Virus record (IMG/VR): IMGVR_UViG_3300043427_001127
Coordinates: 107,626 to 171,625 of that record
Source: a virus
Strand: one strand, 5' to 3'
Length of the DNA stretch: 64,000 nucleotides
The notes under the pieces were generated by a model that did not search any database, had not been told where the DNA came from, and saw only the letters and a program-made list of their open reading frames with translations. The translations under genes were made by a program, and so were the position numbers. Shown here one piece after another: positions 10,982 to 61,619 of the stretch. Every line of letters starts with the position of its first letter. Positions within the stretch are counted from its first letter, which is position 1.

Positions 10982-11010
10982 TTGACAATGACTTCGCTTT
11001 TGTTTACAAT
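10982..11010 (+). promoter_or_regulatory. Host-type promoter for petF
   Basis: GAGGGC, then TTGACA 10982-10987, 17 bp, TACAAT 11005-11010. It would start transcription about 55 nt before petF and overlaps the 28-codon frame at 10988. Confidence 0.65.
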
Positions 11011-11367: not shown

Positions 11368-11382
11368 TCTAGGAGAACTACT

Positions 11383-11502
11383 ATGAAATTCGGATTCACC
11401 CCTGAGGCAGAGATCCTCAATGCTCGCCTGGCAATGCTCGGTTTTGTCATTGCTGTTGGCACTTATCTCACTACAGGTCAGATTATTCCTGGAGTGCTCT
11501 GA
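11383..11502 (+). CDS. hli: High-light-inducible protein (HLIP), short form
   Basis: 39 residues, ribosome site AGGAG (11371-11375). AEILNARLAMLGFVIAVGTY is the canonical HLIP helix with its E-x-x-N-x-R chlorophyll-binding pattern, and TTGQIIPGVL the usual C-terminus. Nearly the whole protein is the helix. Ends at the terminator at 11509. Confidence 0.95.
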   Translation: MKFGFTPEAEILNARLAMLGFVIAVGTYLTTGQIIPGVL

Positions 11503-42713: not shown

Positions 42714-42721
42714 TATAAATA
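42714..42721 (+). promoter_or_regulatory. Late promoter TATAAATA
   Basis: Exact TATAAATA, directly after the terminator, 38 bp before the giant structural gene. Confidence 0.8.
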
Positions 42722-42759: not shown

Positions 42760-45700
42760 ATGCCATTAACGAGATTAGATAATCTTATTTCAAGTAAAAC
42801 TGGTAAATATCTTTATGTTTCACCTGATGATTATAATGCATCAGATGCGCTAGATAACAGAGGAAATACACCTTTAAGACCATTCGTAAGTATTCAACGT
42901 GCCTTCTTAGAAGTAGCTCGTTTTTCGTATCTACCTAATGTAGATAATGATAGATTTGACCAGTTTACCATTATGTTGGCACCTGGCAATCACTATATTG
43001 ATAACCGTCCTGGTGTTGCAAATGTAGAAGATATTCCAACATTCCAATATAATGAGGCATTACAGCAGTGGGAAGCAAATGAAGATGTAAGTTTTGATCT
43101 TTCCGATCCAGATAATATTCTTTATCGTTTCAATGGTCGTGATGGTGGTGCTACGATTCCTAGAGGTACATCTCTTGTAGGTACAGACCTTCGTAGAACT
43201 CAGCTACGTGCTCTGTATGTTCCCGATCCTGCTGATAAAGATGTTCCTCGTTGTGCGCTGTTCAACGTAACAGGTGGTTGCTATTTCTGGCAGTTCACTA
43301 TTCTTGATGGCGACCTTTCTTCAAACTCTCCTCTATACGACGGTACGGTAGGTCGCGTCTACACACAACCTAACGATACTACAAACCGCCCAGTACCTGA
43401 GTTTTCACACCACAAGATTACAAACTTTGTTTTTGCTGATAGAGAAGATTTAGGTCTACTTTACAGAAAGATTGCAAAAGCTTTTGGTGACTATCAAGAT
43501 ACTATTGATGATGTATATGTAGAAGGTTCATCTACACCAGTAAGTAGTCAGTGGTCTGAAGATGTTACCTATAACGTTGGTGATAGGATTATCTACAATG
43601 GAAACGCTTTTGTTGCTAATGCAGTTGTAACAGGCATCGACCCAGAATCGGATGATACTAAATGGACCAGACTTGTAATCCGTGGTAGAGAGTTTGACTA
43701 CAGAGTACAGGAAAACAGAATCGTTGGTCCTCTATCTGATGCCGTGTTTATTGATAGCATCAAACTTATTGATGGTGTTGGAACTGATGTTGGTATTCTA
43801 ACTCTTGAAGTTAGAACTAAGATTAATCATGGTTTCTTCCCTGGTCAATATGTTGCGGTAACAAATAACAATCTTAATAATGCTTTAAACGGTGTATTTG
43901 CTGTATACAATATCAGCACTAATGATCCTAAAGTCTTCTACTATCGTGTTCCGTTTACTGCACAAGGTCTAAACCTAACTTCGGGTGAGACATATACAGC
44001 TACTTCTACCATTCCTCTCAACCAGACTGCTACAGTTCAGGCAGAAGTTGACTCGGTAGAATCAGCATCACCATACGTCTTCAACTGTTCGATTCGTTCT
44101 ACATGGGGTATCTGTGGTATCTGGGCAGATGGTCGCAAGGCGACTGGTTTCAAGTCGATGGTTATCGCTCAGTACACTGGTGTTTCGCTACAGAGAGACG
44201 ACCGTGCATTTATTCGTTATGATGAGTTTAGCAACACTTGGAACCAGGCACCTCTAACTGATGCATTTGCAACAACTCCTTACCACATCAAGGGTGATGC
44301 ATACTGGAAAGATGATTGGAGAAACTTCCACGTTCGTGCTTCGGATGACTCCTTCATTCAGAACGTTTCGATCTTCGCTGTAGGTTTCGCAGATCACTTC
44401 CTGCTTGAGTCTGGTGGTGACATGTCGATCACCAACTCCAACTCAAACTTCGGTAACACATCGATGCACTCGGTTGGTTACAAAGGATTCTCCTTTAACC
44501 AAGATAAGGGTGGATATATTACTGACATTATTCCTCCACAGGAACTTAAGACTTCCGACAAGTCTAAGCAGCAATATTATCCTATTCAGATTAACCTAAC
44601 AAATGATGCCACAAACACAAGCAGAGTTTATCTTGCTGGTGATGCTGTAAAGGATCCTGAGAATCGCCCTGCTGCCTCTGTAAGTGGGTATAGAATCGGT
44701 GCCAGGGTAAATGAACAGATTAAGGTAAAACTTAATGCGGGTACTGGAGAATCTGGTCCTACGGAAAAGAGTGCGGTATTAAATCCTTCTGGATTTAAGA
44801 GATGGGCTACATCACTTACAACTCTAAATCCTGCTGGTGCTTCATTTACTACTGAATATAATCTACAACAAGATGCAGCAAATCTAATCGAAGCAAACCA
44901 AACGTTTATTCAATCTGAAGCATTTGGATATATCCTTGAGAAATATCCATATCTACAAAATATTTCGTATGTAAACCCAAATATTACTTCCGAAACTGGT
45001 AGATATAGAGACGCTTCAAACCTGATCAAAGCAAATAGACAGGAAATCATTGATACAGCTTATAATGAAATGGTTACTGCATTCCCTGGATTTGTGAATC
45101 CAGATGTAGTAAAATGTAAGAGAGATTTAGGATACATTATTGACGCTATTGCAAACGATCTTTATGATGGTGGAAATGCTCATATTGTTGAAGCAACTCA
45201 ATCATATTTTGGCAGTAACGGGCAAATCTTAAGCAACGGTTTGAGTGGAGAACAAACTCAATCTGTATTTGCTTTTAATCGCGTTAGGGATCTTTGTAAG
45301 TTAGCTATTGCTAACATGCTTTCATCTACAAGTTCTTTACAAGTTTCTTCTATCACTTCTAGTGGAACTACTGTAACTGTAACTTGTTCTTCTCCGCATA
45401 ACTTAACAGTTAACACAAAAATCAGTGTTATTGGTTTAAATCAATCTGCTTATAATGGTGATTTTACTGTTCTTTCTACTGGATTAACCGCAACACAGTT
45501 CCAGTATACTGCTCTATCTGCTCCTTCTGCCTCTCCTGCTACTGGAGTTTCATACATTTCCACGGTAACTATTGATCAGGCAAACAGAACTACTCTTGCG
45601 GGTAAGTTAAAAAATGCAAGTGATCTAATCTTTGCTAACAAGCAGCAAATCGTAGATGCTGCTTATGTAAGTTCCATTCCTTCAGATACGAATGGTACTA

Positions 45701-48700
45701 AGTGTAAGCGCGATATCGGTTATGTTGTTTCTGCAGTTGCGAACGATCTAAACTTTGGTGGTAACGAATACACTATTGCTGCTATTAAAGAATATTTTAA
45801 TGGCAATAGTTTACTATCAAATGGCGTACAGGGTGAAGTAACTCAAACTGTCGCAGCATTCAACAATGCTAGAGAGCAGTGTAAACTTGCAATCAACAAC
45901 CAGTTGAATGTAAAAGATTTAACTATCAAACCAGATCCTGCAACAGGTTCTAACACTAGCGTAAACTCTTGTGCTGATGTTAAGAGTACAATCGATAACT
46001 TATTTGGATTGGTTACTACAACTCTCCAAGCTGGAAATCTAGATAATCTTGCAACAGTAAATAACGGTTTGTATGACTGTGCTAATGTTAGAAGCACGAT
46101 TGATACATTAAGTGCTATTCTGACAACTGCTATTTCTTCTGCTAGCCTCACTTCTGTTCCTGCTCCAAATCCAGGATTATGGTCAAGAGTTTCTGAGAAT
46201 AGCAAGTGTAAGAGAGATATTGGTTATATTGTGGAAGCAATCGTTGCTGACTTGAGACTTGGTGGAAATGTCAATACTGTTAATGCAGCAAAAGCTTACT
46301 ATATTGGTGTAACACAAGATACTGATGGAGTGAATGATGGGTTTACTCTGGACTATATTGAAAATGAACTGAATGAAACTCTAGATGCATATAACTATGT
46401 GAGAGATTTGTGTATTTCTTCCATGAGAAATCACAACACTTACATGACAGTTAATACTGCAAACTCTTCATTAGTTACAGTTCCATCTACAGTGGGACTT
46501 GCAGTTGGAATGAAGGTTGTTGGTGTTAACAACATTCCTTCTACGACTGGTACTAGTGCTCTAACTAACTATAATGATCAATATGAAGAGTTAGTTGATG
46601 GAAAAGTTGTACCCAAATCTTCAAACATTAGCACTGCGTACATTCCAGCAGATACCTACATCAAGAGAATCGTAAACTCAACACAGATTGAACTTGGTGT
46701 TAGAGGTAGTAAACTAAACTATGGTACTACAAAGACTGCTGTTGCTGGAACAGGAGTAAAGGTATTCTTCCAACTTGAGGAAGGAATCTGGACATCATCT
46801 ATTGGTCCTTCAGTAGATAATACAGTTATTCAAGATTATGTTTATAGTGGAAATGGCGAATGCTCTTCTGTTTATACCACTATTGGTAACTACTTTGGTA
46901 TTATTTCTACCATTTTACAGAATGGTGTTAATGCTGTTACTGCAACCACTCCAACTGCTGATACTGCACTTCTTTCCCAAAGAGCTACTGCATTTACTCT
47001 TCAGGAGATTCAAGGCGAAAATCTTCTTGCTAACCCACATAATCTAGAGACGGGTACTCCAGTAAGACTTGTTCCTAGAGCAAAACCAGGATCTAATGTA
47101 GACAAGCGTTTAGTGCGTCTTCCAAAAGGATTCAGTACAAATACTAAGTATTATGTAATCGCTCCTGGTAGAAGAACACAACCTTTCAACTATGCTACTG
47201 GCGATTTTGCCGCTGCCGATCAACAAAAGATTCTTCTTGCGACCAGTGAAGAGAATGCAGCAGCTGGTATCTATATCTACTCTCCTGAAACGGAAAACAT
47301 TAACGAAAATGTAATCATTGATGTTTATCAATACGTTCTTGATAATAGTTACGATCTACATCAGTATAAGACTACTCTCTTCGATTCTACTACTTTCTTG
47401 ACAGAATCTCCACATATTTTTGACATTCCTGTTAATGATGTTGGGGTAACACTTCAGAAAGTGTTCTTTAGAACAGGCAGCGATTTAGGTGCAAACTCTA
47501 CGCTTCCAAATCCAGCTAATACTTATATCGGTTTGTTTAATGACACCACTGAGTATTATGTTAGATATTTTGATGACGCCAGCGGTTCTTCGATTGCCAA
47601 GAAGTTCAAGATTTATTTGACGGCTCAAAATGCTATTAACAATGAAAACCCTGTAGAATTTTTTGAAAATAGTGGAACTACTTTTTACACATTTGCTAAT
47701 AAAAAACGTGTTTCATTAAAGTTTGATCCGACAGTTGATATTGCTGATCTTCCAAAAGGAAGATGGTATTTAAATACAGTTGCTGATTCTTCTTCTGGAA
47801 ATATTATCACTAGATTGAAGCAATCTGATTATAGTGATGATTCTGTTGGGAATAATGCAAAAACTTCTGATTCTTTCTTTGAAAGAGTAAATGATTTAAG
47901 AGACAAGCAAGATAGAGTTTATAGATTTAGATTTGTCATCCCTGCATACAGAGGTACTACAGTTAGAGATCCTCTAAATGGATTTGTATTTAAGATTAGA
48001 ACTGACTCTAAGAGAAAACTATTACCACAGAAAATTCTTTTAAGACCAACTGGAAATGCAAGTGCATTTGCAACATTTTATGCTTTAAACTCTGCTGGAC
48101 AGCAAGTTAATGAAAAACTTGGTTGGACATATTCACAACTGAATGCCGCTGGATTTGATGATACTGTTTATGATCCATATCTAAATCCAGTTAAGATTCA
48201 AACTAACTCTAAGATTACTGCCAGCATTCAATCTGCCAGACAAAGAAGCATTAATGGAGTAAACTATCTTGAACTTACTGTCTTTGACCATGATGTTGAC
48301 GCAGCATACAAAACAACAATCTTCACTACTGTAAAGATTACTGCACCTCAGGGTGGTAATGGAGCGTTTGAAGCAAGTTTAACTGACTTAGATTCTGATA
48401 ACTTTATTGAGTGGGAAGGAGCTTGTTCTGGATCTGGATATGTACACGCATTCTTAAACTATGGAACAGAATATCATCTGATTCTGAAGGGAATAACTGG
48501 TAACTCAACACTAGATTTTGACCCATTTGTGACAACTACCTTTAAGCAAGGATCAGTTTCTGCTGTCATGATGGACGAACCTGACGGTGGTAGAACAGAT
48601 AAAGAAAAAAATCTATATGCAGTTGAGGGTGCTAACGTTTATACATTAACACCAGGAGATATTGTAAAAGATTCTACAAACGTAAGTTATACGATTGCGG

Positions 48701-51700
48701 AAGTAACTGATATTGAAGATTTAGAAGGAACTTATTATATCTTCTCTGTTGATACTATTCGCAGAAGAATTCCTAACCAACAAGATGGTGTTTACTATCT
48801 AACTTGTGTGCGTGGTGATATTAGACCATTCCCTGTTGGATCTGGTGTTGGTGAAAACTTCAGAAACTTTAGATTCTCACAACCCATTTCTAAACTCTAC
48901 CCTGAGTTCTATAAGAACGATCCTGAGTGGTATAGAGCACTTGATGATACTTTAAAAGATCCCCCAGAAACTATTTCTGCTGCGGATAACTATATTCATG
49001 GATTGGTTACAGTTAACGATTCCAAGAACTCTTTGACAAAAGAAACAGTCCTTGATTTCGTACAAGATTCTGGTTCTGGTGTATATTCGTTTACTGGAGA
49101 TAATGTCATTCAGGCGCAGTCTGGACCTGCTTCTGCTGGATCTGAGACTAGAAGGATTCCTATTTCTGGTGATTCTGTATATCCTACAGAAAAGAGAGTT
49201 TATGTAGAACTTCGCAGACCTTCGATTGCAAGATCTGGCAACCACACGTTTGAATATCTTGGTTTTGGTCCTGGTAACTACTCCACAGGTTTCCCTGCGC
49301 GTCAGGAGATCGTTCTGACTGATGTTCAGGACTTCTATGCCCAAGCTAAGCGTGAAGACGCTGGTATCGTCTTCTACACGGGTCTGAACTCCAATGGCGA
49401 CCTTTATATTGGTAACAGAAAGATCAACGCTATTACTGGCGAAGAGACTTTCTTAGAATCTGCTGAACTTGTAGAATCTGAGGATGAAGATGAAAGCCCA
49501 GCAACACTGGTAACTACTTTTGAAGTTCCAGTAACCTTCAAGGATATTATTACTGTTGAAGGATTTGACGGAACCAAGCAAAGTGTATTTACTTCTCCTG
49601 TATACTTCAACGTAAGAGTTCTTGATGATTTTGGTGGTCCTGTTGATCCAGCTATCACTGTTAAGACTAATATTGATCCAACTAACGATGATAGTTATTT
49701 AAATATCACATCTTTGGGTCAAAAGACTGGCGATATTAAGATTGAGAAGAATAGTATCGCTTTGGGAATGTTGAGGATATATGCTCGTGGTGAGCAAGGA
49801 TATACAATCAGAGCACATATTTCAAACAAAACTCCTGATCAGGCATCTCCTTTTGGCGGTGATATTACACAACCATCTACTCAGATTATCAAGTTTGGTT
49901 CAAGAAATCCTGTTTCTGGTGATGTTCTTTTCAAGGGATCTCAAACAGATGTAACTGGCGCTGCTGGTTGGATTTTTGCAAATACCTACGCTGTTCTGTC
50001 TAAGACAGGCGACAGTGGTATTACAAATCCTCAGATTGCAAATATTCAAGGATTTGGTAGTGGTAATGTTATTCGTCTGAACTGGAACACTACTGGTTCT
50101 CCAGCTTGGACAAATAGTTTACTTGGCATCACTGAATCAACTCAGATTAAGATTGTCGGTGCTCAATCTCCAATCTCTCAGATCAATGGTATCTGGAGAG
50201 TAGTTAACACAGTTGCAAATCCATTCAGTTCTACTGCAAACTATCTTGATGTATCGCCATCTGAAGGCAATCAAATCACGGTTGAGTCCAATCTTTACAC
50301 TATAAGCACAGTTACTCAACCAAATATATCCATTTCTAAGAGTTCTACTTCTTGGAGAGAATGGGGAATCATTGGTTCTGAAGCTCTCAGAACAGAAACA
50401 GATTCTATTGGCAACTATAAACTAGGTGTTAATACTGTATCTCGTGCTCCACATAGCGCATATAACAATGCATTTATTTCATTAGAAACAACTCCTAGAG
50501 CAAACTTAGATGTTGTTGGAACTGCATTCTTCAGTGGAAAAACTTTATCTACATCACCAAACAACTTCTTAGCAAACTCTAACCCAACAAACAGAACATT
50601 TAGTGGTGTATCTAATGCGTTCTTGATTGGTGGTGATAGTGCTAATCCAGATAACGAGGCAACATTTAGATTATCTACTTCTACCAACAGAGTTGGTATT
50701 AATGTAACTAATGCTGAACTTGATAGAAGTTTAGTTATTGATGGTGATGGTAGAGTTACTGGAAACTTCAGATTCCAAGCGGATATTGAAGTCAATGGTG
50801 GAGACATTACAACAACTGTAACCACTGGATCATTTAACTTTGTTGAAGATAGCACTTTCACTGGTACTCTTAATATTGGTAGCTATCCAGCAACCGTTAA
50901 CTTTGCTGCTAGAGCAACCACACTTAATATTGCTAACACAACGACATCAACTCAAACGATTAATGTTGGTAATGCTGCAGCAAACCAGACCATAAACGTT
51001 GGCAATACTGGAACTGGTACACATGATGTAAATATTGCTACTGCTGCTACAGGAGCAACTACTTTAGATGTATTCAACTCTTCTGCCAATGTAAGAGTAG
51101 ATATTGGCAATCCTTCTGCTTCTGCTACATCATCCAAGATTACTCTTGGTGGTGCTTATAATGCCAACGAATCTAACAGTTACTTAGAAGTTAAAACTAA
51201 GTCTGCTAAGTTCTTTGGTGATATGCAGATTGGAACGAATAAGACTGTTTCTGATACTGTAACGCTCGGAACTGATGCAGGAACCGTAAACTTCTTCTCT
51301 ACATCTGGATCTGCCTCTACCATTTCATTTGGATTAAATGCTTCTGTATTGAATATTGGCGGTCAGGGTGGAACAACCACAGTAAGAAACAGTTTGACTG
51401 TGGACGCTTCGCTGCTTGTCAAGAACAATATCACTCTTGATGGTGGTACTGCTACATTCTCATTCAATGGAAACAGAGCATCTCTTGGATCTACCATTGC
51501 TTCTCACACTGGTTTTCCAACAACCGTCCCAGTTGATAAGAATGTTGACCTAGTTACTATTGTCAGTGGTTTTGATAACGTTGTTGATACAGCTGGTGCT
51601 GGTGATTGGGGTGGAACTTTCTTCCAACAAGCGATTCCAACATATACAGGAAATGACGGAACTGCTCTAGGTGCTCTATCTGGAAACCAATACTACTTAC

Positions 51701-53250
51701 CACTTGAAAATTCACCAACTTACTTGGAAGGTTATGATATTTTAATCGATACCGTTGTTGGTGGTACGAGACATCCTGAGATTGTTAGAGTTGCATCTGG
51801 TGGATTAAGAAGAACCACAACTGCTCCATACTATATTATTGTTGAGAGACAACCATATGGTACTTTCTTGCCAATAAAAACAAATCACACTGATGGAACT
51901 GCCACAAAACGAGTTAATGTTGCATTAGATTCCACATGGTTGACTGCTAACGTTGACGGTAGTGGCACCTCAGATGTCTTCAGTCTTTCTGAGTTTGGTG
52001 GAACTCTAGCATCAGGTGATTATATTTTTGTTGATAGAAATAGCACTGGAACTTCTGGTGAAGCAGTAAAGATTACTTCTTCTACAGGATCAGTTGCACA
52101 AAAACTAATCGTTACTGATGGTGCTGGATCTACTACTTTTGAAGTTGATTCAACAGATGGTCATACAGTTGTAAGTAACTCAACTGCTCTCGGTGGACTA
52201 GATGTATATGGTCCATTCAACCTCATCAGTTCTTGTTCTGCAACCTCTGCTAACAGACTATTCTCGCTTAAGAATAGTTCTTCAAATACCACATGGTCGG
52301 TTGACATGTGTAATGGAGAGACTACTATTACACAGGGAACATTAACTACTGATGTAAATGTTCTTGATGCCACTGCAACATGGAATAGCTCTTCGACAAC
52401 ATTTACAGCAATCAAGTTAAATGTTACTAATACATCTTCTAATGATGCATCTAAACTCATTGATCTACAGGTAGGATCAACCACTAGATTTAATGTTGAT
52501 GCATCTAGTGGTGACACTTATATGCTAGGTGATTTAACAGTTGCTGGTAATGATATTAAGTCAAGTACGGCAACTGCTCTAACCTTGTCTGGTGCCAACG
52601 TAACTGTTGCTGGTGACTTAACAGTATCTGGAAATGATATTAAGTCCAGTACAGGTGACACGGTATTGACATTAAACGCAAATGATGCTACATTTGCTGA
52701 TAACGTTACTGTTGGCGGTGATCTTACAGTCTCTGGAGGTGACTTTGTTGTTAACTCTTCATCCACAGAAAGATTTGCAGTCAATAATGATGGCAGTGTG
52801 GATCTTGGTGGTATCAACAACTACTTCACAAACTCTGGTGGAAGAAAATGGTTGTTCATAAGTTCAGGAACAAATACTGACGCAACAGCTCCAAGTCTAG
52901 TATCAAATCTCAGCTATATACTTAAACCGAGTGGTACAGGATCATTGGTCCTTAAACTACCAGCTTCTCCTCAAACTGGTGATATGATTAGATTCGTTGA
53001 TGCTTCTGGTGGATTGACATACAACTGCACATTAGTTATTAGAGCTCCAAAACAAGGAACAACCGCTGTTCCTATTCAAGGTGACAATACTGGCACTTTA
53101 GCTGGAAATAGATCTACTGTTTGGGATAGCGGAGAACTCTTAGTCAATACACCTAACGCTGCATTTGGTCTTCTTTATATTGGTGCTCAAGATGGAGCTG
53201 GAACTGCTATCGATTCAGCGCAACAAGGTTGGTGGCTAATGGAAATCTAA
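42760..53250 (+). CDS. Giant virion structural protein (3,496 residues)
   Basis: The longest gene of the window. The N-terminal third (LTRLDNLISSKTGKYLYVSP; PLRPFVSIQRAFLEVAR) looks like a beta-helical domain. Three copies of a module CKRDIGYIVxAIxxDLxxGGN occur at about residues 785, 980 and 1149, each followed by a helix with FNxxRxxCKLAI-like sequence. The last 900 residues are Thr/Ser/Asn-rich repeats (TLNIANTTTSTQTINVGN; LTVSGNDIKSST) as in fibre shafts. Cyanomyoviruses carry one such very large tail or fibre protein; its role is probably adhesion or wedge/fibre connection. Followed 3 bp later by three collar-domain genes. Confidence 0.8.
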   Translation: MPLTRLDNLISSKTGKYLYVSPDDYNASDALDNRGNTPLRPFVSIQRAFLEVARFSYLPNVDNDRFDQFTIMLAPGNHYIDNRPGVANVEDIPTFQYNEALQQWEANEDVSFDLSDPDNILYRFNGRDGGATIPRGTSLVGTDLRRTQLRALYVPDPADKDVPRCALFNVTGGCYFWQFTILDGDLSSNSPLYDGTVGRVYTQPNDTTNRPVPEFSHHKITNFVFADREDLGLLYRKIAKAFGDYQDTIDDVYVEGSSTPVSSQWSEDVTYNVGDRIIYNGNAFVANAVVTGIDPESDDTKWTRLVIRGREFDYRVQENRIVGPLSDAVFIDSIKLIDGVGTDVGILTLEVRTKINHGFFPGQYVAVTNNNLNNALNGVFAVYNISTNDPKVFYYRVPFTAQGLNLTSGETYTATSTIPLNQTATVQAEVDSVESASPYVFNCSIRSTWGICGIWADGRKATGFKSMVIAQYTGVSLQRDDRAFIRYDEFSNTWNQAPLTDAFATTPYHIKGDAYWKDDWRNFHVRASDDSFIQNVSIFAVGFADHFLLESGGDMSITNSNSNFGNTSMHSVGYKGFSFNQDKGGYITDIIPPQELKTSDKSKQQYYPIQINLTNDATNTSRVYLAGDAVKDPENRPAASVSGYRIGARVNEQIKVKLNAGTGESGPTEKSAVLNPSGFKRWATSLTTLNPAGASFTTEYNLQQDAANLIEANQTFIQSEAFGYILEKYPYLQNISYVNPNITSETGRYRDASNLIKANRQEIIDTAYNEMVTAFPGFVNPDVVKCKRDLGYIIDAIANDLYDGGNAHIVEATQSYFGSNGQILSNGLSGEQTQSVFAFNRVRDLCKLAIANMLSSTSSLQVSSITSSGTTVTVTCSSPHNLTVNTKISVIGLNQSAYNGDFTVLSTGLTATQFQYTALSAPSASPATGVSYISTVTIDQANRTTLAGKLKNASDLIFANKQQIVDAAYVSSIPSDTNGTKCKRDIGYVVSAVANDLNFGGNEYTIAAIKEYFNGNSLLSNGVQGEVTQTVAAFNNAREQCKLAINNQLNVKDLTIKPDPATGSNTSVNSCADVKSTIDNLFGLVTTTLQAGNLDNLATVNNGLYDCANVRSTIDTLSAILTTAISSASLTSVPAPNPGLWSRVSENSKCKRDIGYIVEAIVADLRLGGNVNTVNAAKAYYIGVTQDTDGVNDGFTLDYIENELNETLDAYNYVRDLCISSMRNHNTYMTVNTANSSLVTVPSTVGLAVGMKVVGVNNIPSTTGTSALTNYNDQYEELVDGKVVPKSSNISTAYIPADTYIKRIVNSTQIELGVRGSKLNYGTTKTAVAGTGVKVFFQLEEGIWTSSIGPSVDNTVIQDYVYSGNGECSSVYTTIGNYFGIISTILQNGVNAVTATTPTADTALLSQRATAFTLQEIQGENLLANPHNLETGTPVRLVPRAKPGSNVDKRLVRLPKGFSTNTKYYVIAPGRRTQPFNYATGDFAAADQQKILLATSEENAAAGIYIYSPETENINENVIIDVYQYVLDNSYDLHQYKTTLFDSTTFLTESPHIFDIPVNDVGVTLQKVFFRTGSDLGANSTLPNPANTYIGLFNDTTEYYVRYFDDASGSSIAKKFKIYLTAQNAINNENPVEFFENSGTTFYTFANKKRVSLKFDPTVDIADLPKGRWYLNTVADSSSGNIITRLKQSDYSDDSVGNNAKTSDSFFERVNDLRDKQDRVYRFRFVIPAYRGTTVRDPLNGFVFKIRTDSKRKLLPQKILLRPTGNASAFATFYALNSAGQQVNEKLGWTYSQLNAAGFDDTVYDPYLNPVKIQTNSKITASIQSARQRSINGVNYLELTVFDHDVDAAYKTTIFTTVKITAPQGGNGAFEASLTDLDSDNFIEWEGACSGSGYVHAFLNYGTEYHLILKGITGNSTLDFDPFVTTTFKQGSVSAVMMDEPDGGRTDKEKNLYAVEGANVYTLTPGDIVKDSTNVSYTIAEVTDIEDLEGTYYIFSVDTIRRRIPNQQDGVYYLTCVRGDIRPFPVGSGVGENFRNFRFSQPISKLYPEFYKNDPEWYRALDDTLKDPPETISAADNYIHGLVTVNDSKNSLTKETVLDFVQDSGSGVYSFTGDNVIQAQSGPASAGSETRRIPISGDSVYPTEKRVYVELRRPSIARSGNHTFEYLGFGPGNYSTGFPARQEIVLTDVQDFYAQAKREDAGIVFYTGLNSNGDLYIGNRKINAITGEETFLESAELVESEDEDESPATLVTTFEVPVTFKDIITVEGFDGTKQSVFTSPVYFNVRVLDDFGGPVDPAITVKTNIDPTNDDSYLNITSLGQKTGDIKIEKNSIALGMLRIYARGEQGYTIRAHISNKTPDQASPFGGDITQPSTQIIKFGSRNPVSGDVLFKGSQTDVTGAAGWIFANTYAVLSKTGDSGITNPQIANIQGFGSGNVIRLNWNTTGSPAWTNSLLGITESTQIKIVGAQSPISQINGIWRVVNTVANPFSSTANYLDVSPSEGNQITVESNLYTISTVTQPNISISKSSTSWREWGIIGSEALRTETDSIGNYKLGVNTVSRAPHSAYNNAFISLETTPRANLDVVGTAFFSGKTLSTSPNNFLANSNPTNRTFSGVSNAFLIGGDSANPDNEATFRLSTSTNRVGINVTNAELDRSLVIDGDGRVTGNFRFQADIEVNGGDITTTVTTGSFNFVEDSTFTGTLNIGSYPATVNFAARATTLNIANTTTSTQTINVGNAAANQTINVGNTGTGTHDVNIATAATGATTLDVFNSSANVRVDIGNPSASATSSKITLGGAYNANESNSYLEVKTKSAKFFGDMQIGTNKTVSDTVTLGTDAGTVNFFSTSGSASTISFGLNASVLNIGGQGGTTTVRNSLTVDASLLVKNNITLDGGTATFSFNGNRASLGSTIASHTGFPTTVPVDKNVDLVTIVSGFDNVVDTAGAGDWGGTFFQQAIPTYTGNDGTALGALSGNQYYLPLENSPTYLEGYDILIDTVVGGTRHPEIVRVASGGLRRTTTAPYYIIVERQPYGTFLPIKTNHTDGTATKRVNVALDSTWLTANVDGSGTSDVFSLSEFGGTLASGDYIFVDRNSTGTSGEAVKITSSTGSVAQKLIVTDGAGSTTFEVDSTDGHTVVSNSTALGGLDVYGPFNLISSCSATSANRLFSLKNSSSNTTWSVDMCNGETTITQGTLTTDVNVLDATATWNSSSTTFTAIKLNVTNTSSNDASKLIDLQVGSTTRFNVDASSGDTYMLGDLTVAGNDIKSSTATALTLSGANVTVAGDLTVSGNDIKSSTGDTVLTLNANDATFADNVTVGGDLTVSGGDFVVNSSSTERFAVNNDGSVDLGGINNYFTNSGGRKWLFISSGTNTDATAPSLVSNLSYILKPSGTGSLVLKLPASPQTGDMIRFVDASGGLTYNCTLVIRAPKQGTTAVPIQGDNTGTLAGNRSTVWDSGELLVNTPNAAFGLLYIGAQDGAGTAIDSAQQGWWLMEI

Positions 53251-53253: not shown

Positions 53254-54357
53254 ATGTCTATTAACTATAACACATTAAAAACATTAAAAGGAATGGCTAT
53301 TGGCACTATCATGCCGTGGGCTGGTGGTGAAGATAGTATTCCTAAGGGATGGATATCATGTGATGGTTCTACCAAACAAAAAGTTGATTATCCAGATTTA
53401 TTCGATGTTATTGGTCAATACTATGGTGGATCTGGAAACTTTTTTAGATTGCCAGATTTAAATGCCAAAGCTTTGGCTGATATGAAAACTAGTTATCTTC
53501 CTTCTGGAACATCTACTGTTTTTTCTGGTCAAATAGGTACAAATCAGTCAACTTTGAGTAATGTGATTTATACGTCTAATCTAGCATTGACGATAGCTAT
53601 TGATACTAGTCTTGCATCTGGAACATATACTGCAAAAATAACAGGGCAGACTATTAATCCTCCTGCATATTTTGATGAAGTTACCGTTGCTTCTAGAACT
53701 CTTGGAGATTATCATTGGCCTACGCATACTCACACGGGTAACTTTTCTAGTATTGGAAGAGGAAGCGGTGGCGTAGAATCATGTGAAGACAACTTTGGCA
53801 CCAACCCAGCATTTACTGGATGTGACCCCCCAGGCGGCGGTATTTTTGACCCTGACCTTTTTCAGACGGGAGACTGTTGTGATAACGATACCTTTCTTTT
53901 GAGTGAATGTAATAATTCCAGTAGTGGTGTAAATAACTATTACAAAAACTCTATTGCTGGTGGTATTCCTTTAGGTGATGGATTTAACAATACTAATCAG
54001 AGAGTCACAGATGCTCCAGCTAGAATCAACACGGCCCCTAAAAACTGGTTAGGCAGCTCTGATAGTACTTTAATTAGTACAGGTAATTTTAACTTTGCAA
54101 CTACTATAAGTGATGTTTTTAGTGTGTGGCCAACTTCTACCTCTGGAAATGATAACTCTTTAGGATCTCACGTACATGGTCCTGTTGGATATTCTGTAAA
54201 TCAGGGTAGTTTTCAAGTTCAGTCTAATATTATCGTTAATGATATTACTACTGGTAACGTAGCACCAGTAAACGAAACTTTTGAGGATTTGTTGCAATTT
54301 ACTGTAAACACATCAACTCCTTCGTTAAGAATGCAGTATATCATCAAGGCTTGGTAA
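53254..54357 (+). CDS. Tail-collar domain fibre protein 1
   Basis: 367 residues. The collar (PF07484-type) domain at 12-75 shows IGTIMPWAGGEDSIPKGWIS, CDGS, YPDLFDVIGQYYGG and FFRLPDL. The centre is Ser/Thr/Asn-rich, with CEDNF, CDPPGG and DCCDND cysteines at about 180-210, and HTHTGNF and GSHVHGP metal-binding-like His motifs as in short tail fibres. Ends LRMQYIIKAW, an ending shared in kind with the next two genes. Confidence 0.85.
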   Translation: MSINYNTLKTLKGMAIGTIMPWAGGEDSIPKGWISCDGSTKQKVDYPDLFDVIGQYYGGSGNFFRLPDLNAKALADMKTSYLPSGTSTVFSGQIGTNQSTLSNVIYTSNLALTIAIDTSLASGTYTAKITGQTINPPAYFDEVTVASRTLGDYHWPTHTHTGNFSSIGRGSGGVESCEDNFGTNPAFTGCDPPGGGIFDPDLFQTGDCCDNDTFLLSECNNSSSGVNNYYKNSIAGGIPLGDGFNNTNQRVTDAPARINTAPKNWLGSSDSTLISTGNFNFATTISDVFSVWPTSTSGNDNSLGSHVHGPVGYSVNQGSFQVQSNIIVNDITTGNVAPVNETFEDLLQFTVNTSTPSLRMQYIIKAW

Positions 54358-54358: not shown

Positions 54359-55222
54359 ATGGCAAACTACTCATACGAAAAGGGAAAATACGGATCGACT
54401 GCTGGAACTATTGTACCATTTCCCAGGAGATTAGATGGTAAACAGGGAACAGATTGGGAGCAATATGTTCCTGCTGGATATCTTAGATGTGATGGCAGTA
54501 AACTTTCGGCGGATCTTTATCCAAATCTTGCGAGAATACTAGGAACGGGTGACGCATCGATTTATAAAAAAGAAAATGTTGAACTTGATGACGATGAGTT
54601 TCAGTTGCCAGATTTAGGATCAAAATATATAAAAGCCAGTCCTTCTTCTGGTGGATATGAAAGTTACTATGCTGTTGGTGCTCCTAGTGGAGTTTTGCAA
54701 CCAAAAGTCGGTGTTGATGTTGAACTTGAGTCAACAGAAGGAACTGGTCAAATAACAGTTGCTGTTCAATATACTGGGTCTTTTGCTATTCCTGCGAGAT
54801 CTGTAGTTTTAAATGGAAACTTAGCCATATCTATTCCAGGTTCGACGGATCAATCTACAGTGACATCTGATAGTATGCTTCCGCATGGTCACTGGGCAAA
54901 CACGGTAAGTCTTAGAGGTAGTCCTGTAACTGGAAACTATTCATATGACACCACACAAACGTTTGGATCTGAGTGTACTCATAAGGCGGAAGGAGTAGAA
55001 ACTCAAATAGGTGATGATCTTTCAGAAGAGGCAACATTGCATTCACACACTGTTAAATATGGATCTCCACCCACCAAAAGCATATCTGGAAATATTGCAG
55101 CACTTACTGCACCTGTGGAAGATAAACTTTTTACTGATGTTAAAATAAATATAGATGACACATATGTTATAAATGATGTTCAACCACCATTTATTTTAGT
55201 AGAATATTTAATAAAATATTAA
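54359..55222 (+). CDS. Tail-collar domain fibre protein 2
   Basis: 287 residues, collar domain at 15-95 (GTIVPFPRRLDG, AGYLRCDGSKLSADLYPNLA, FQLPDLGSKYIKAS), beta-rich centre with LPHGHWAN and LHSHTVKYG histidines, and the end FILVEYLIKY. One-base gap from the previous gene; clearly a paralogue of it. Confidence 0.85.
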   Translation: MANYSYEKGKYGSTAGTIVPFPRRLDGKQGTDWEQYVPAGYLRCDGSKLSADLYPNLARILGTGDASIYKKENVELDDDEFQLPDLGSKYIKASPSSGGYESYYAVGAPSGVLQPKVGVDVELESTEGTGQITVAVQYTGSFAIPARSVVLNGNLAISIPGSTDQSTVTSDSMLPHGHWANTVSLRGSPVTGNYSYDTTQTFGSECTHKAEGVETQIGDDLSEEATLHSHTVKYGSPPTKSISGNIAALTAPVEDKLFTDVKINIDDTYVINDVQPPFILVEYLIKY

Positions 55223-55223: not shown

Positions 55224-56273
55224 ATGGCAGTAAAATATTCTAAGCAATCAGAAAAAAGCGGAGCAACAGTTGGTACTGTTGTTTGTATACCAAAACCTGC
55301 TGAGTGGACTAGTACCTCGGATGATTGGGATATTGATGTTGATTATCCAGGGTGGTTAGAATGTGATGGTTCATCTTTAAATCCAAATAACTATTATGCA
55401 TTATATCAAATAATAGGAACTACTTACGGTGGAACTGTTAGTGGGACATACCCAAACATGACAGGCACGTTCAAACTGCCAAACTATAGAGCAAGATATT
55501 TAACTGGAACTGGTAGGTCTGACGGTAATATTCCAGGAAGCGCAACGCTTACTCCAAATACATTAGCTGATGGAACAGCACCTATAGATGTAAACTATCC
55601 TGGTAGTACAGGTGGAGTTTACACGATTAATGATATTAGACAACAAACTCCAACTCAAGATGATACTTTTGAAATCGTAAGCAAAAAATCTAGAGGATTT
55701 GAAAATGTTGAGGTTGAAGCACCAATAACTTTATCTGGTAATATTACACAAAATTTTGGTCCATTTGGTGCAACTCAACTATATTCTGCTCCTCCTCATA
55801 CACACGTATTGCCACATAGTAGATTGACAAATGAAGAAGCTGCTACAACAGCTGATGGTGGTCCTTCTATTGGATTTGATTTAATCTGTTGTTTGAATGG
55901 TGCATCTGGTAGTATTATTTCTTACAGAAGAAGGGTTGAAAATGCAAGTCCAGGAGATATTCCAACTACAAGAAAACACAGTCATAAAATATCTGCAAAT
56001 ACTGCTGGACAGGCTAGAACATGGGGGCATGATGAGGAAGGTGGAAATACTGGCATATCTTCAGGTGCAGTTGGATACGGTAATACTGCAACTAAAACTA
56101 TTTCTGTTACCGATCTTGGATTAGATTGTAATGTGGGCACATTAAAAGTGAGTAGTTCTTCTTCAGTAAGAACCTTATTTGACAGTAGATTAACTACCAA
56201 CTTGACAAGTGCCGAAACTTTGTCTATGATGCAAGCTTATCACCGAAATAAATACATCATTAAAGCATTTTAA
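55224..56273 (+). CDS. Tail-collar domain fibre protein 3
   Basis: 349 residues, collar domain at 15-100 (GTVVCIPKPAEW, YPGWLECDGSSLNPNNYYAL, FKLPNYRARYLTGTG), HTHVLPHSR and RKHSHKIS histidine motifs, end YHRNKYIIKAF. Third tandem paralogue. Together they may form hetero-oligomeric short fibres or wedge connectors. Confidence 0.85.
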   Translation: MAVKYSKQSEKSGATVGTVVCIPKPAEWTSTSDDWDIDVDYPGWLECDGSSLNPNNYYALYQIIGTTYGGTVSGTYPNMTGTFKLPNYRARYLTGTGRSDGNIPGSATLTPNTLADGTAPIDVNYPGSTGGVYTINDIRQQTPTQDDTFEIVSKKSRGFENVEVEAPITLSGNITQNFGPFGATQLYSAPPHTHVLPHSRLTNEEAATTADGGPSIGFDLICCLNGASGSIISYRRRVENASPGDIPTTRKHSHKISANTAGQARTWGHDEEGGNTGISSGAVGYGNTATKTISVTDLGLDCNVGTLKVSSSSSVRTLFDSRLTTNLTSAETLSMMQAYHRNKYIIKAF

Positions 56274-56288: not shown

Positions 56289-56903
56289 ATGACTATACCT
56301 ATCAAACCTCTAGAACTAATGGAGGGTGAGTTTGATGAGTTTATTGGAATATGGAAAAATCATGTTCCTGCTAGCCTTTGTAAAAAGTATATAAAATATT
56401 TCGATGAAATATTTTCTGAAGATAGATCTTCTTTTGCAGATGGCACTGAGCAGTTTCATGATAATAATTTAGGTCGCAAAGATTTGTCTTTGATGATCAA
56501 TGCACATAATCCAGAATTTACTGGTGAAATCAATCAATATTTGCAAGCATGTGTGTTAGATTACATTAGAGAATATGGTCAACTAAGAAGTATTCCTATT
56601 ATCTCAACTGATATTAAAATGCAAAAAACTCCCCCTGGTGGAGGATATCATGTTTGGCATTATGAAGCTGGTTCCTATGATCATTCACATAGAGAACTAG
56701 TTTGGGCAATCTATCTAAATACTCTACCAGATGGAGAAGCAGAAACAGAATTTTTATACCAGAAACGTAGAATAAAACCAGAAGCGGGGACAGTTGTTAT
56801 TTGGCCAGCTGGTATGACCCATGTTCATAAAGGAAATACTGTCTTCACTGAAGATAAATATATTTTGACTGGGTGGTATATCAAAATCCCAAAACTTAAA
56901 TAA
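56289..56903 (+). CDS. 2OG-Fe(II) oxygenase
   Basis: 204 residues. H124-Y-E126 (VWHYEAG) is the HxE variant of the iron-binding motif, distal H180 (THVHKGN), K190 at the 2OG position, and the core strands LVWAIYLNT and GTVVIWPAG are present. This form of domain is common in cyanophages. It lies directly behind the adhesin genes (ribosome site TTGGAG at 56277), so adhesins may be substrates, which is inference. Confidence 0.85.
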   Translation: MTIPIKPLELMEGEFDEFIGIWKNHVPASLCKKYIKYFDEIFSEDRSSFADGTEQFHDNNLGRKDLSLMINAHNPEFTGEINQYLQACVLDYIREYGQLRSIPIISTDIKMQKTPPGGGYHVWHYEAGSYDHSHRELVWAIYLNTLPDGEAETEFLYQKRRIKPEAGTVVIWPAGMTHVHKGNTVFTEDKYILTGWYIKIPKLK

Positions 56904-56913
56904 GATATAATCA

Positions 56914-57828
56914 ATGACAAACATCATTCTTCAAGCTAATCTAAAAGAAAGCACTATCCTTTACGAAGGGAAGGTAGTTACTTTGGATGAGGAAAAAAAA
57001 TCTTTATTGTGCCAACAGTTAGGATCTTTTTGGCATAATGATAAAGATTATATTCTTCTGTTTGAATATTATGATGATGGAAAATATAACTGCGAAAGAA
57101 AAAAGCAAATATATGATTACAGATATCGTGAGTTTTCAGAAAAAAACTACATGTTTACTGAAGCTACTTTAGAACAAGCTAAGAGTGCATATGATATTTT
57201 TGCTTCTTTTTATGAGCAAGCGAGAGTATTAGATTTACAGAAGGCGAAGGAAGAAGTACAGAAAAAGATAAACGAGTTTACTAGTATTTTACAAATTAAT
57301 CTTCGTCTTTTGAGACAAAGAATGTTATCTATGACAGATTGGATTTTTATTGACGATGGATCAGTAAGAGATCCAGAAAAACAAGATTTGTATAGAAAAT
57401 ATAGACAATATTTAAGAGATATTCCAGAAACAAATCCAGAGTTTGAAAGTGATCCGCTTAATGCAAAATTTCCTATTATGCCCGAACAGTATTTGGAAAA
57501 CTATCCAAACAAAGAAGTAGAATATTTATCTACTCCAGATCAGTTTACTCAATATTATTTTGAAACTATAAAGAGAAAACTTTTAAGATTCCAGCAGTGG
57601 TTGTCTTTACCATCAACTAGAATCGATTGGTCGGTAGACGGCAGTGAAATAGAACTAGAAGATTTCAAGAGAATACAAGAAAAAATCAAAAAAGCACTGG
57701 ATGCTGTTGATACTGAACTTATTGTTCCGCCTTTACAGTTCGTTCCACCAGTTAATACTGCTTCAGAAGCTTACATAGATAGATTAGTACAAAACGCAGA
57801 AGATTATATAGAAAACACTGGGAGTTGA
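56914..57828 (+). CDS. Fibre-assembly/chaperone-like protein
   Basis: 304 residues. The middle contains LRQRMLSMTDWIFIDDGSVR, then KYRQYLRDIPE, the pattern of phage tail-fibre assembly and tail-assembly chaperones (DWxxxxDxxxx...YRQxLRDIP). The N-terminal 100 residues are charged, with a coiled segment (about 100-130), and the C-terminal half is helical. Position after three collar genes supports a fibre-folding or attachment role. Confidence 0.7.
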   Translation: MTNIILQANLKESTILYEGKVVTLDEEKKSLLCQQLGSFWHNDKDYILLFEYYDDGKYNCERKKQIYDYRYREFSEKNYMFTEATLEQAKSAYDIFASFYEQARVLDLQKAKEEVQKKINEFTSILQINLRLLRQRMLSMTDWIFIDDGSVRDPEKQDLYRKYRQYLRDIPETNPEFESDPLNAKFPIMPEQYLENYPNKEVEYLSTPDQFTQYYFETIKRKLLRFQQWLSLPSTRIDWSVDGSEIELEDFKRIQEKIKKALDAVDTELIVPPLQFVPPVNTASEAYIDRLVQNAEDYIENTGS

Positions 57829-57834
57829 TTAAAT

Positions 57835-58530
57835 ATGTTTTATGTAATGAAAGTTTTGAATGACAATCAAATCAATAAAATAAAAAAATATTATGATTCT
57901 GCTATTTTTGAATCTGGACGCTGGGGCGGCAAAACAGTTAATCTAGATAAAAAAAATAATCTAGAAGCTGATCATGGAGAATCTTATAGGGATAAAAAAT
58001 ACATAGAAGTTTCTGATATTGTCGCACATGCCCTAGAAGATTGTCATGATTTTAGAAACTATATTTTGCCAGTTTCTATATCAATAATGAACTTTGCTCG
58101 CTATACTGAGGGGATGTATTATGGATTTCATAATGATAACTATGTGATGCAACATAAAAGTAGTGGTGATTATATTAGAACTGATTATAGTTGTACTCTT
58201 TTCTTGTCATCTCCCGATGATTACGATGGTGGTGAACTAGTTCTGCAAATCGGGAATCAAACTCAGTCCTTTAAACTTGATTCTGGATATGCTATTTTTT
58301 ATCCAACAACATATATACACAAAGTTAACGAAGTTACACGAGGAACTAGAGATGTAGTTGTTTTTTGGATTCAAAGTAAAATACGAGATTCTATGATAAG
58401 AGAACTCATTTGTGATATACATGAAATAAACAAAGAATACAAAGATAAACTAAATACAGCAGAATTTGATAATCTTAATAATCGACTGACTCACATCTAC
58501 ATGCAACTAAGAAGGAGATTTTCGGACTAA
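57835..58530 (+). CDS. PKHD-type 2OG-Fe(II) hydroxylase
   Basis: 231 residues. H99-N-D101 (YGFHNDN), TDYSCTLFLSSPDDYDGGEL, H162 (YIHKVNEVTRG) and R172 form a complete catalytic set of the PiuC/PKHD hydroxylase type. Such genes are frequent in cyanophages, substrate unknown. It lies between the chaperone-like gene and a small unknown before the halogenase. Confidence 0.92.
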   Translation: MFYVMKVLNDNQINKIKKYYDSAIFESGRWGGKTVNLDKKNNLEADHGESYRDKKYIEVSDIVAHALEDCHDFRNYILPVSISIMNFARYTEGMYYGFHNDNYVMQHKSSGDYIRTDYSCTLFLSSPDDYDGGELVLQIGNQTQSFKLDSGYAIFYPTTYIHKVNEVTRGTRDVVVFWIQSKIRDSMIRELICDIHEINKEYKDKLNTAEFDNLNNRLTHIYMQLRRRFSD

Positions 58531-58892
58531 TGGAATCATACTACGAACCAAAAAGTTTCTGGCAAGCTATGTCTGAATACGCTGCTCTTAAACAAAAATC
58601 TTTGATGTATTTCAGAGCAGTTGGTATTCAAGAATCTTCGGATGAAGAAAAAATCAAAGAAGTTCTGGATCATTACAAACAGATCTGCCCTGAAGAAATA
58701 TTAGACTGCTTAGTTTATCAAAAACATAATGTTTTGTTTTTTGAAGACGAAATAGCAGCTAGAGAAAGAGCACAAGAATGGTTTCCATTTTTGGATGAAA
58801 TGGATTACCCAGAATATAATGTATATGTTCATATTTTTACTCCAAATGGCGACAGTTGTTTTGAGAATCTACCTTTTGTAAAACATGATTGA
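58530..58892 (+). CDS. Hypothetical protein between oxygenase and halogenase
   Basis: 120 residues, acidic, helical first half, aromatic-rich end (MDYPEYNVYVHIFTPNG). Its ATG shares a base with the oxygenase stop, and it ends 11 bp before the halogenase ATG, so it is co-translated with both. It could be a partner protein of either enzyme; no family recognised. Confidence 0.6.
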   Translation: MESYYEPKSFWQAMSEYAALKQKSLMYFRAVGIQESSDEEKIKEVLDHYKQICPEEILDCLVYQKHNVLFFEDEIAARERAQEWFPFLDEMDYPEYNVYVHIFTPNGDSCFENLPFVKHD

Positions 58893-58903
58893 AGAATATT
58901 ATT

Positions 58904-60340
58904 ATGAAACTATGTGTGATTGGAACAGGTGCCGCTGGGTGGATGGCAGCGAACTATTTTGCAGTTGATAAAAATATAGAAAAAGTAACTATTATTGGTT
59001 CTCCTGAAATAATGCCTATTGGGGTGGGAGAATCTAATACTATAGTCTTGAATGATTTTCATGCTGGTATTGGCAGCAAAATGGATGAGTTTGTTGTAAA
59101 ATCCGACGCTGCTGTTAAGTATGGAGTTTTTTACAAAAACTGGTCCGATGAAGATTTTTTACATAACTTTAAACGTGCAGGCACTCCATGGAAGCACATT
59201 GGTATAAAATCAAAAGAATATTTTGCTTCTCTATCAAATAGAGACAGTCGAGTAAAGTTTCATGATTTGTATGCCAAAGATTTATTTGATATTGTAAGAT
59301 CTAATCAAGTTATATTAAATTTTGATGAATATCCTATTTCTTGGCATTTTGATGCTGCAAAATATATTGATTATCTTTCAAATCACATAAAAACAAATAA
59401 CTTTGAGGCGATTTACAGCACAGTTTTGGGTTGTACACTTGATCAAGGTAAAATCAAATCTTTGAAGTTGGCAAATGGTTCTCAGATCGAAGCGGATTAT
59501 TTTATTTTTGCAACGGGTTCGAATAGTTTAATCGTAGATCAGCTGAGATTGGAATATGTTGATCTTTCTGATATTTTACTTACAAATAAAGCATATGTTT
59601 ATCCTTTAGAATATAAAGAAAAGCGTAAACAGTTTCATCCATATACTGTTGCTAAAACCATGAAATATGGGTGGAGATGGATAACACCCACATATTCTAG
59701 AATAGGGACTGGTTATGTTTTTAGTGATAGACATGTTACACATGAACAAGCATTACGGGAGTTTTTGCAAGATATTGGCGATGATACTATAACTCCTAGA
59801 TTAGTGTCATTTGAACCCAGGTATAGTAAAAATACTTTCAATAGTAACTTTTGCACTATTGGTATGTGTAATGGATTCTTAGAACCTTTAGATGCTCCTG
59901 GAATAACATTAACTCTAGATACGTTGATACGTTTGAAATATCTATTCGATCAGCAAAAGAGATACGGCGTGGGAACTTTTTATGATCATTGTTTGTGGTC
60001 TTCAAACAAAACAATGGAACATCTATATAAATTTTGGGCTGCTTTTATCCTAGCACAATACAAAACTTGTTACAGGAACGATACTGATTTCTGGCAAGAT
60101 CATAAAAATGTGCAATGGGATTTTTATGATGATATGATTAAACGATTTGATAGTCATGATGGGAATGATATTATTAATGGAGATATGATTTTCCATACAA
60201 TGTCTGCACGAAGATATAAATGGAAATACTACTCAGATATTCCTACTTTTGTTTTATCTTCAGAACTTAATGAGCAAACAATGAATCATTTGGATTATAT
60301 CCAAGGTTTTCATAGAAGTTTACATGCCCAGGGGGCTTGA
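58904..60340 (+). CDS. Flavin-dependent tryptophan-halogenase-like protein
   Basis: 478 residues from ATG 58904. The FAD-binding GxGxxG motif lies at 7-12 (GTGAAG), GVGES at 40-44, K72 (AAVKYGVFYKNW) at the place of the catalytic lysine, and GWRWITP is a variant of the WxWxIP motif that blocks monooxygenation. All family landmarks are present. Tryptophan halogenases chlorinate or brominate indole rings of free or bound substrates and need a flavin reductase, not seen here. The gene ends with GGG GCT TGA, where the stop lies in the next promoter's -35 box. Confidence 0.9.
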   Translation: MKLCVIGTGAAGWMAANYFAVDKNIEKVTIIGSPEIMPIGVGESNTIVLNDFHAGIGSKMDEFVVKSDAAVKYGVFYKNWSDEDFLHNFKRAGTPWKHIGIKSKEYFASLSNRDSRVKFHDLYAKDLFDIVRSNQVILNFDEYPISWHFDAAKYIDYLSNHIKTNNFEAIYSTVLGCTLDQGKIKSLKLANGSQIEADYFIFATGSNSLIVDQLRLEYVDLSDILLTNKAYVYPLEYKEKRKQFHPYTVAKTMKYGWRWITPTYSRIGTGYVFSDRHVTHEQALREFLQDIGDDTITPRLVSFEPRYSKNTFNSNFCTIGMCNGFLEPLDAPGITLTLDTLIRLKYLFDQQKRYGVGTFYDHCLWSSNKTMEHLYKFWAAFILAQYKTCYRNDTDFWQDHKNVQWDFYDDMIKRFDSHDGNDIINGDMIFHTMSARRYKWKYYSDIPTFVLSSELNEQTMNHLDYIQGFHRSLHAQGA

Positions 60341-61420: not shown

Positions 61421-61619
61421 TAAAACAGACTTGTACGAAGTACCAGTTAAAACAACACCACAAAATGTCAAGGAAGCAAATGAAGGGTTGTTTCAATCAA
61501 AAATGACACTTCCTGCTGCCGCAAAACATTGTGGTATGACTCAAAAAGAAATGAAGTTGACATTTTTTGAGTATTTGAAGTATCATCCACCTACCTACAT
61601 TAATGGTCAAGATGCCTAA
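61401..61619 (+). CDS. Hypothetical protein with HTH-like segment
   Basis: 72 residues. MTLPAAAKHCGMTQKEMKLT followed by FFEYLKYHPP looks like a helix-turn-helix (small residue in the first helix, Gly turn). Could be a small DNA-binding regulator of the adjacent methylase unit; not a recognised family. Confidence 0.5.
   Translation: MSLLKINKTDLYEVPVKTTPQNVKEANEGLFQSKMTLPAAAKHCGMTQKEMKLTFFEYLKYHPPTYINGQDA

Follow-up and report, generated by a model that had tools for sequence, protein, structure and literature searches.

The DNA analysed here (the window) is the final 64 kb of the 171,625-bp IMG/VR virus record IMGVR_UViG_3300043427_001127, and it carries psbA together with T4-like cyanophage structural genes. 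The subject of this work is a cassette in the window which lies directly behind tail-fibre genes and ends with a flavin-dependent halogenase (FDH). The locus opens with a giant tail fibre or virion structural protein of 3,496 aa (42760..53250), whose first 1,600 aa match the PHROG families phrog_4527 (short tail fibre, E = 0) and phrog_529 (tail fibre, 3e-202). Three proteins with the Collar domain PF07484 follow. The first is a short tail fibre protein (53254..54357; PF07484 5.4e-17, phrog_4591 1e-48), the second (54359..55222; PF07484 9.9e-8) matches the tail collar family phrog_4714 (1e-45) and the third is gp12-like (55224..56273; PF07484 1.8e-12, short tail fibre phrog_4924 3e-32) and matches gp12 of marine cyanophages with tblastn. 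Behind them come the 2-oxoglutarate (2OG)-Fe(II) oxygenase oxyA (56289..56903; PF13640 6.4e-9), a tail (fibre) assembly chaperone (56914..57828; PF16778 2.5e-8, phrog_4697 5e-40), the PiuC/PKHD-type 2OG-Fe(II) hydroxylase oxyB (57835..58530; PF13640 1.5e-12, PiuC structure 9ghl 7e-27), a 120-aa protein of no assigned function (58530..58892; phrog_4883 2e-9) and the halogenase (58904..60340; PF04820 1.7e-71), a member of what we call the DAPG subfamily. The Pfam and PHROG labels of the cassette genes agree. All genes lie on the plus strand, and from the giant fibre to the halogenase the gaps are in order 3, 1, 1, 15, 10, 6, −1 and 11 bp. An earlier note on this DNA had described the oxygenases, the assembly-like protein, the small gene and the halogenase as packed behind three collar genes; positions and shared strand are borne out, with gaps of −1 to 15 bp. 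The ATG at 58904 begins MKLCVIGTG, agrees with the start of the relatives and leaves the 11-bp gap; judged from the sequence it is probably the start of the halogenase (478 aa) rather than the TTG at 58889. It is plausible that the cassette is one late unit, as had also been proposed. A pattern search gave a weak T4-late-promoter-like octamer, TATAAATA (42714..42721, plus strand), 39 bp 5′ of the giant fibre gene. Motifs of this type occur, however, five times in the window, where chance alone would give 4.4, and they were therefore discarded as evidence for a late unit.

Both oxygenases carry the residues of 2OG-Fe(II) enzymes. In OxyA, H124-x-E126...H180 and K190 are conserved with the homologue from phage Syn1 (55% identity). 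In OxyB, H99-x-D101...H162 and R172 are invariant among the homologues and the similarity to PiuC spans the full length (residues 12-230, 7e-27); on the substrate of PiuC we found nothing informative in the searchable literature. The chaperone, encoded by the second gene past the last collar, scores 34.1 bits with PF16778 (cut-off 26.6). What the earlier note called fibre-assembly-like is more exactly a Phage_tail_APC tail assembly chaperone. The chaperone and OxyB are 31% and 32% identical to their Syn1 counterparts, which are encoded at the same positions. The 120-aa protein has homologues in S-CAM4 and in the IMG/VR contigs L289 and L291; it adjoins oxyB in S-CAM4/ACG-2014j and its place is conserved in marine cyanophages. 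Its AlphaFold2 (AF2) model (predicted local distance difference test, pLDDT, 83.5) gave no significant fold match, the best E value being 0.059. As a side observation, the proteins encoded behind cyanophage fibres under the name "DNA endonuclease V" belong to the 2OG-Fe(II) oxygenases; in S-WAM1 (NC_031944, L038) two such reading frames at 35535-36092 and 36468-36770 score 35.4 and 33.6 bits with PF13640. The wrong label is spread by PHROG names such as phrog_2297 and phrog_274 and also affects the window OxyA, and "ferrochelatase" (phrog_3531) matches the same mislabelled proteins.

The cassette order is identical in the loci L002-L005, whose halogenases are 88-100% identical to that of the window (L005 may be the same virus from the same sample). 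A version without halogenase, consisting of three collar genes, oxyA, chaperone, oxyB and the 120-aa gene, is found in L289 and L291. A helicase-like protein comes next after the 120-aa gene in L289 and after the oxygenase part in the partial locus L292, neither of which has a halogenase. As the order is identical in L002-L005 and the module without halogenase recurs in L289, L291 and L292, the gene order is not due to chance. Marine cyanomyoviruses (Syn1, S-PM2, S-CAM4, ACG-2014) likewise have gp12 followed by oxyA, chaperone and oxyB; the small gene is shared with S-CAM4, L289 and L291. These marine modules differ from the window in lacking the terminal halogenase; Syn1, in addition, has gp12 as a single long protein and a further 2OG oxygenase downstream. 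The stretch from the collars to the 120-aa gene is an old and common cyanomyovirus module, and a halogenase at its end was seen only in the window phage and its close freshwater kin. Since Syn1, S-CAM4, L289, L291 and L292 have no terminal halogenase, we conclude that the halogenase was inserted at the module end in the window lineage. The cassette of the earlier note thus holds in its genes and their order, but its oxygenase part is common cyanomyovirus equipment and not particular to the window phage. A cellular source of the halogenase was considered and dropped: six bacterial matches (Alteromonas, Halobacteriovorax) of 26-28% identity point to no donor. The freshwater myocyanophage Pam3 also has a fibre gene followed by an assembly chaperone (gp24-gp25), but in contrast to the window no oxidising enzymes are described beside that fibre (PMC9608196).

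The halogenase itself is well conserved as a fold. PF04820 gives 241.9 bits (cut-off 21), and the AF2 model (pLDDT 90.8) is a complete flavin-halogenase fold which matches FDHs in Foldseek with E values of about 1e-31 or better and with TMq of about 0.75-0.84 to PrnA, PyrH, RebH, Thal and AbeH. With PrnA, PyrH and RebH (TMq about 0.78-0.81) it shares the flavin motif GxGxxG (here GTGAAG), the catalytic lysine K72 (PrnA K79; invariant in 33/33 aligned sequences) and both tryptophans of the WxWxIP motif; unlike them it is not surrounded by an antibiotic gene cluster. The latter motif reads WRWITP, with W257, W259 and the proline kept and Ile replaced by Thr, invariantly in 10/10 aligned subfamily members, and a few other viral FDHs also vary here. 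In place of ESTG, the catalytic glutamate and halide loop at PrnA 346-349, we find D330-A-P-G333, and DAPG is present in 22/22 subfamily members. The natural aspartate aligns exactly with the mutant aspartate of PrnA E346D, for which a structure is solved (2jkc). This DAPG subfamily is viral and monophyletic (22 members after dereplication at 90%, SH-aLRT 100) and stands apart in the tree from the 57-row core clade of VirX1, the characterised FDH of cyanophage Syn10, to which the window enzyme is about 22% identical. Of two PrnA mutants, E346Q reacts about 100-fold more slowly and K79A not at all (PMC5727139), and a different FDH retains an activity that is low but real after Glu→Asp (PMC8407142). 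With the altered loop and these precedents the enzyme must be regarded as conserved but uncertain in its halogenating power. One could argue that the DAPG enzymes have lost halogenation altogether and work like flavin monooxygenases within a halogenase fold, by hydroxylation or by handling hypohalous acid (HOX) or H2O2. Halide is scarce in freshwater, and the changes Glu→Asp, Ser→Ala and Thr→Pro in the loop and Ile→Thr in WxWxIP, invariant in the aligned members, as well as the slow PrnA E346Q, would fit such a loss. Nevertheless we hold it to be improbable, because the catalytic lysine, GxGxxG, both motif tryptophans and the whole fold are kept, the aspartate is conserved along with the lysine rather than decayed, and the Glu→Asp enzyme mentioned above still works.

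VirX1 (Syn10 CPUG_00131, identical to 6qgm) is the best point of comparison. Like the window enzyme it is a PF04820 FDH of a T4-like cyanophage, is encoded directly behind fibres, keeps the catalytic lysine and has 2OG-type oxygenase genes in its neighbourhood, in its case downstream of the FDH. It differs in having ESTG and WVWNIP instead of DAPG and WRWITP, in lying next to Gly-rich fibres instead of three Collar-domain proteins and in that its activity is demonstrated, whereas that of the window enzyme is only predicted. We looked at the surroundings of viral halogenases with a tree of 124 sequences, taking as linkage a tail-fibre family gene within seven genes upstream and counting the loci with enough upstream sequence. 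The Collar domain had to be abandoned as a fibre marker across phages, as it exceeded the cut-off in only 12/30 records, and for this reason PHROG-annotated gene families were used. By this count 39/45 loci were linked in the VirX1 core clade and 5/17 in its sister; the DAPG clade had 4/16 and the remaining sequences 1/20. The FDH lies directly behind the fibres and before 2OG oxygenases in S-RIM44, Sf-FP1, Sf-FR1, Sf-CH11, Syn10, S-CREM1, S-WAM1, S-SZBM1, P-TIM40 and P-RSM6, and elsewhere in Syn1, S-PM2, P-SSM2, S-MbCM6, HTVC008M, S-B64, S-H38 and more. A 2OG oxygenase is a neighbour in 40/45 loci of the VirX1 clade, and JmjC_2 and PiuC-type proteins occur among the neighbours, which indicates protein hydroxylases. 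Enzymes of amino-acid or sugar biosynthesis are absent from the frequent neighbour families of the fibre-linked clusters. The four linked DAPG loci are the window pair and L067/L068. In L011 a large protein lies eight genes upstream and in L009 there is a convergent virion structural gene. L011, L067 and L068 form a separate DAPG lineage, which is likewise located behind large structural-looking proteins with 2OG oxygenases; these large proteins match only a PHROG of no assigned function, so that length and N-terminal sequence are the grounds for calling them fibres. The halogenase of S-SRM01 (L037, 372-10582) represents one more fibre-linked lineage and falls in neither the VirX1 nor the DAPG clade of the tree; it has a giant tail fibre and a tail protein on one side and a protein with the annotation gp37-gp38 adhesin tip on the other (fibre calls by PHROG).

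The linkage was also examined from the side of the fibre. The query for a scan of IMG/VR was the Gly-rich fibre (PF21722-type, phrog_863) that precedes VirX1-like enzymes by two to five genes, and loci with at least 4 kb of downstream sequence were taken as testable. An FDH was present within 4 kb downstream in all 60 of 60 loci, at a median gap of 545 bp, and dereplication at 99, 90 and 75% left 47/47, 35/35 and 16/16; these loci share descent from a single arrangement, and fibres that resemble the query are favoured by the scan. Of the 60 loci, 58 have one or more 2OG oxygenases within 7 kb and 29 have two halogenases. Among 50,697 phage records, the Gly-rich fibre occurs in 20 (11 phages), and 20/20 are halogenase phages. 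S-RIM44 is instructive: isolates with the Gly-rich fibre carry the halogenases at 104 kb, and those without it (KX349292, KX349295, KX349297, KU594607) have only a Syn1-type halogenase copy. A chance calculation for this reverse linkage assumes independent clusters, which they are not, and is not used as proof; a comparison of aromatic residues between fibres with and without halogenase proved impossible, as no Gly-rich fibre locus without the enzyme was found. In the window the Gly-rich fibre of the VirX1 type was not found. Tandem halogenase pairs lie behind the same fibres in S-RIM44 (KX349291, 104678-107789), Syn10, P-TIM40 and P-RSM6; in the first three of these phages the two copies come from different sub-clades. 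Such pairs perhaps serve two sites or residues. The VirX1-type clusters (for example L026, 7496-7990, and L153, 9562-10362) further contain phrog_1787, mostly just upstream, and phrog_7084, mostly just downstream of the halogenase; both are conserved, have no Pfam match and are candidate partners or fibre chaperones. L288 and L315 have another large Gly-rich fibre with several 2OG oxygenases behind it and no FDH in the locus, and these are a natural comparison for oxygenase-only fibre modules.

It might be argued that all this is architecture only: the stretch between the fibres and the uvsW-like helicase or the neck gene would be a hypervariable insertion site of T4-like cyanophages in which oxygenases and halogenases accumulate, and the enzymes would act elsewhere. 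Oxygenases and halogenases do occur outside fibre regions, the halogenase of the window lineage resembles a recent insertion between the 120-aa gene and the next genes, and the chance that a single lineage lands near a fibre is not small. On the other hand, the inner order of the VirX1 cluster is constant although the cluster is followed by the neck gene gp13 in some phages (S-RIM44, Sf-FP1, Sf-FR1) and by a helicase in others (S-WAM1, S-SZBM1), and none of the 60 loci and 20 records with the Gly-rich fibre lacked the enzyme. We therefore consider mere architecture an unlikely explanation.

According to the published view, cyanophage halogenases are free-tryptophan or metabolic enzymes (PMC9964418, PMC2984593, PMC10452541). 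As an auxiliary metabolic gene, the halogenase would act on free tryptophan, another host metabolite or a pigment, its product would protect or reprogram the infected cell, and the position behind the fibres would reflect late expression only. VirX1 accepts many small aromatics (PMC8407142), some other clades lie amid metabolic genes (S-PM2, Syn1, S-MbCM6, P-SSM2), and most DAPG relatives are in small-gene regions, some with glutaredoxin-like genes. In S-SSM6a/S-SSM7 a biosynthetic cluster is predicted (PMC7824862); the S-SSM6a cluster of halogenase, 2OG oxygenases and carbamoyltransferase resembles the window in placing the halogenase beside 2OG oxygenases, but holds amino-acid and sugar enzymes, of which the window cassette has none. 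Indeed no biosynthetic partner genes are found near the window halogenase or in the fibre-linked clusters, and a metabolic gene would not be expected to accompany one fibre family without exception. Free tryptophan is also weakened as a substrate by the proteins themselves. VirX1 has an open pocket without a helical lid over the tryptophan (PMC7948982). In the sequence alignment the similarity of the window enzyme to PrnA stops at PrnA residue 411, ahead of the tryptophan clamp Y443, Y444, E450 and F454 (PMC5659210), and its C-terminal region is shorter and not recognisably homologous. A purely metabolic role thus seems to us rather unlikely, in spite of the literature in its favour.

We suggest instead that the cassette is a late module of tail-fibre genes that brings along enzymes for protein modification, and that these enzymes carry out fibre-directed hydroxylation and probably also halogenation; we give this reading a probability of about 0.45. 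It could proceed in the following steps. The fibres would be made from the same transcript as the enzymes, and the Phage_tail_APC chaperone would fold and trimerise the collar adhesins; a precedent for such help is the Pam3 gp25 chaperone, which covers the fibre tip (PMC9608196). While the adhesins are unfolded or bound to the chaperone, OxyA and OxyB could hydroxylate side chains with Fe(II), O2 and 2-oxoglutarate. The flavin enzyme would make HOX from host-supplied FADH2, O2 and halide, and Lys72 could pass the HOX on to an aromatic side chain (Trp, Tyr or His) that is accessible on a fibre. The altered chemistry might tune the stability of the adhesin tip or receptor binding. In the window phage the halogenase would have joined an older collar-oxygenase-chaperone module. 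In S-SZBM1 the proteins 51-54, encoded a short way upstream of the halogenase (protein 46), are virion proteins by liquid chromatography-mass spectrometry, and the portion of the virion table considered here lists neither the halogenase nor the oxygenases (PMC9146016); as far as this portion goes, it fits enzymes acting during assembly. The target could also be the host envelope (lipopolysaccharide, porins or S-layer), the modification of which would block superinfection or aid release. Bacterial PiuC-type hydroxylases belong to outer-membrane iron-uptake loci, and late expression would suit such a role. Since the enzymes require cytoplasmic FADH2 or 2-oxoglutarate and are co-inherited with fibres and not with host-takeover genes, we regard an envelope target as very improbable.

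Several points weigh against fibre modification. A modified residue has not been observed in any virion, and VirX1 activity is shown on small aromatics only. In the VirX1 clade the linkage goes back to a single arrangement passed on by descent and does not count as many independent events. The window phage has no Gly-rich fibre, and its halogenase is of a different subfamily, distant from VirX1 and mostly not beside fibres (4/16), with an altered catalytic motif. With the catalytic Glu replaced by Asp and the halide-site Thr by Pro, its halogenating activity may be low or absent. Finally, marine relatives have the same collars and oxygenases and no halogenase. As fibre linkage is seen in only about a third of the DAPG subfamily, both the fibre substrate and the halogenating activity are less certain for the window enzyme. 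For the phages of the VirX1 clade we rate fibre modification as better than an even chance, and for the window enzyme lower. The earlier note, which had proposed the modification of fibres and had named linkage in other phages as a check, is therefore supported in part: the linkage exists (39/45 VirX1-clade loci, 60/60 Gly-rich fibre loci, 20/20 isolate records), but the case is weaker for the window phage than for the VirX1 phages. A broader proposal, to which we attach considerable doubt, is that T4-like cyanophages mature their fibres with co-inherited halogenases and 2OG hydroxylases, that halogenated adhesins are the native product of the VirX1 type, and that the DAPG type is a second one, acquired separately and serving the same end.

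Cyanophage halogenases, the chemistry of VirX1 and cyanophage 2OG oxygenases are already known, and the window locus shows known enzymes in a setting that is new and testable rather than something categorically new. We found no report of the halogenase-fibre link in the searchable literature, which does not reach most subscription papers, and within this literature the DAPG subfamily appears to be undescribed. Viral halogenases have a known chemistry, and a fibre family that in no case was seen apart from the enzyme points to a specific and testable native substrate. If true, a virus would enzymatically halogenate the adhesin of its own particle, which would add a layer of tuning of host recognition beyond sequence change. 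The DAPG subfamily, as the natural counterpart of the PrnA E346D mutant, is of interest to halogenase enzymology.

Two minor observations may be added. The freshwater contig L009 carries, at 2944-4185 and 10001-11437, a DAPG halogenase and a second, divergent halogenase-like gene, the latter accompanied by genes for a sulfotransferase-looking protein and a 2OG oxygenase. In the window, soon after the cassette (61603-62451), a gene encodes what is by its sequence a Dam-like DNA adenine methyltransferase, and this gene is kept in close relatives.

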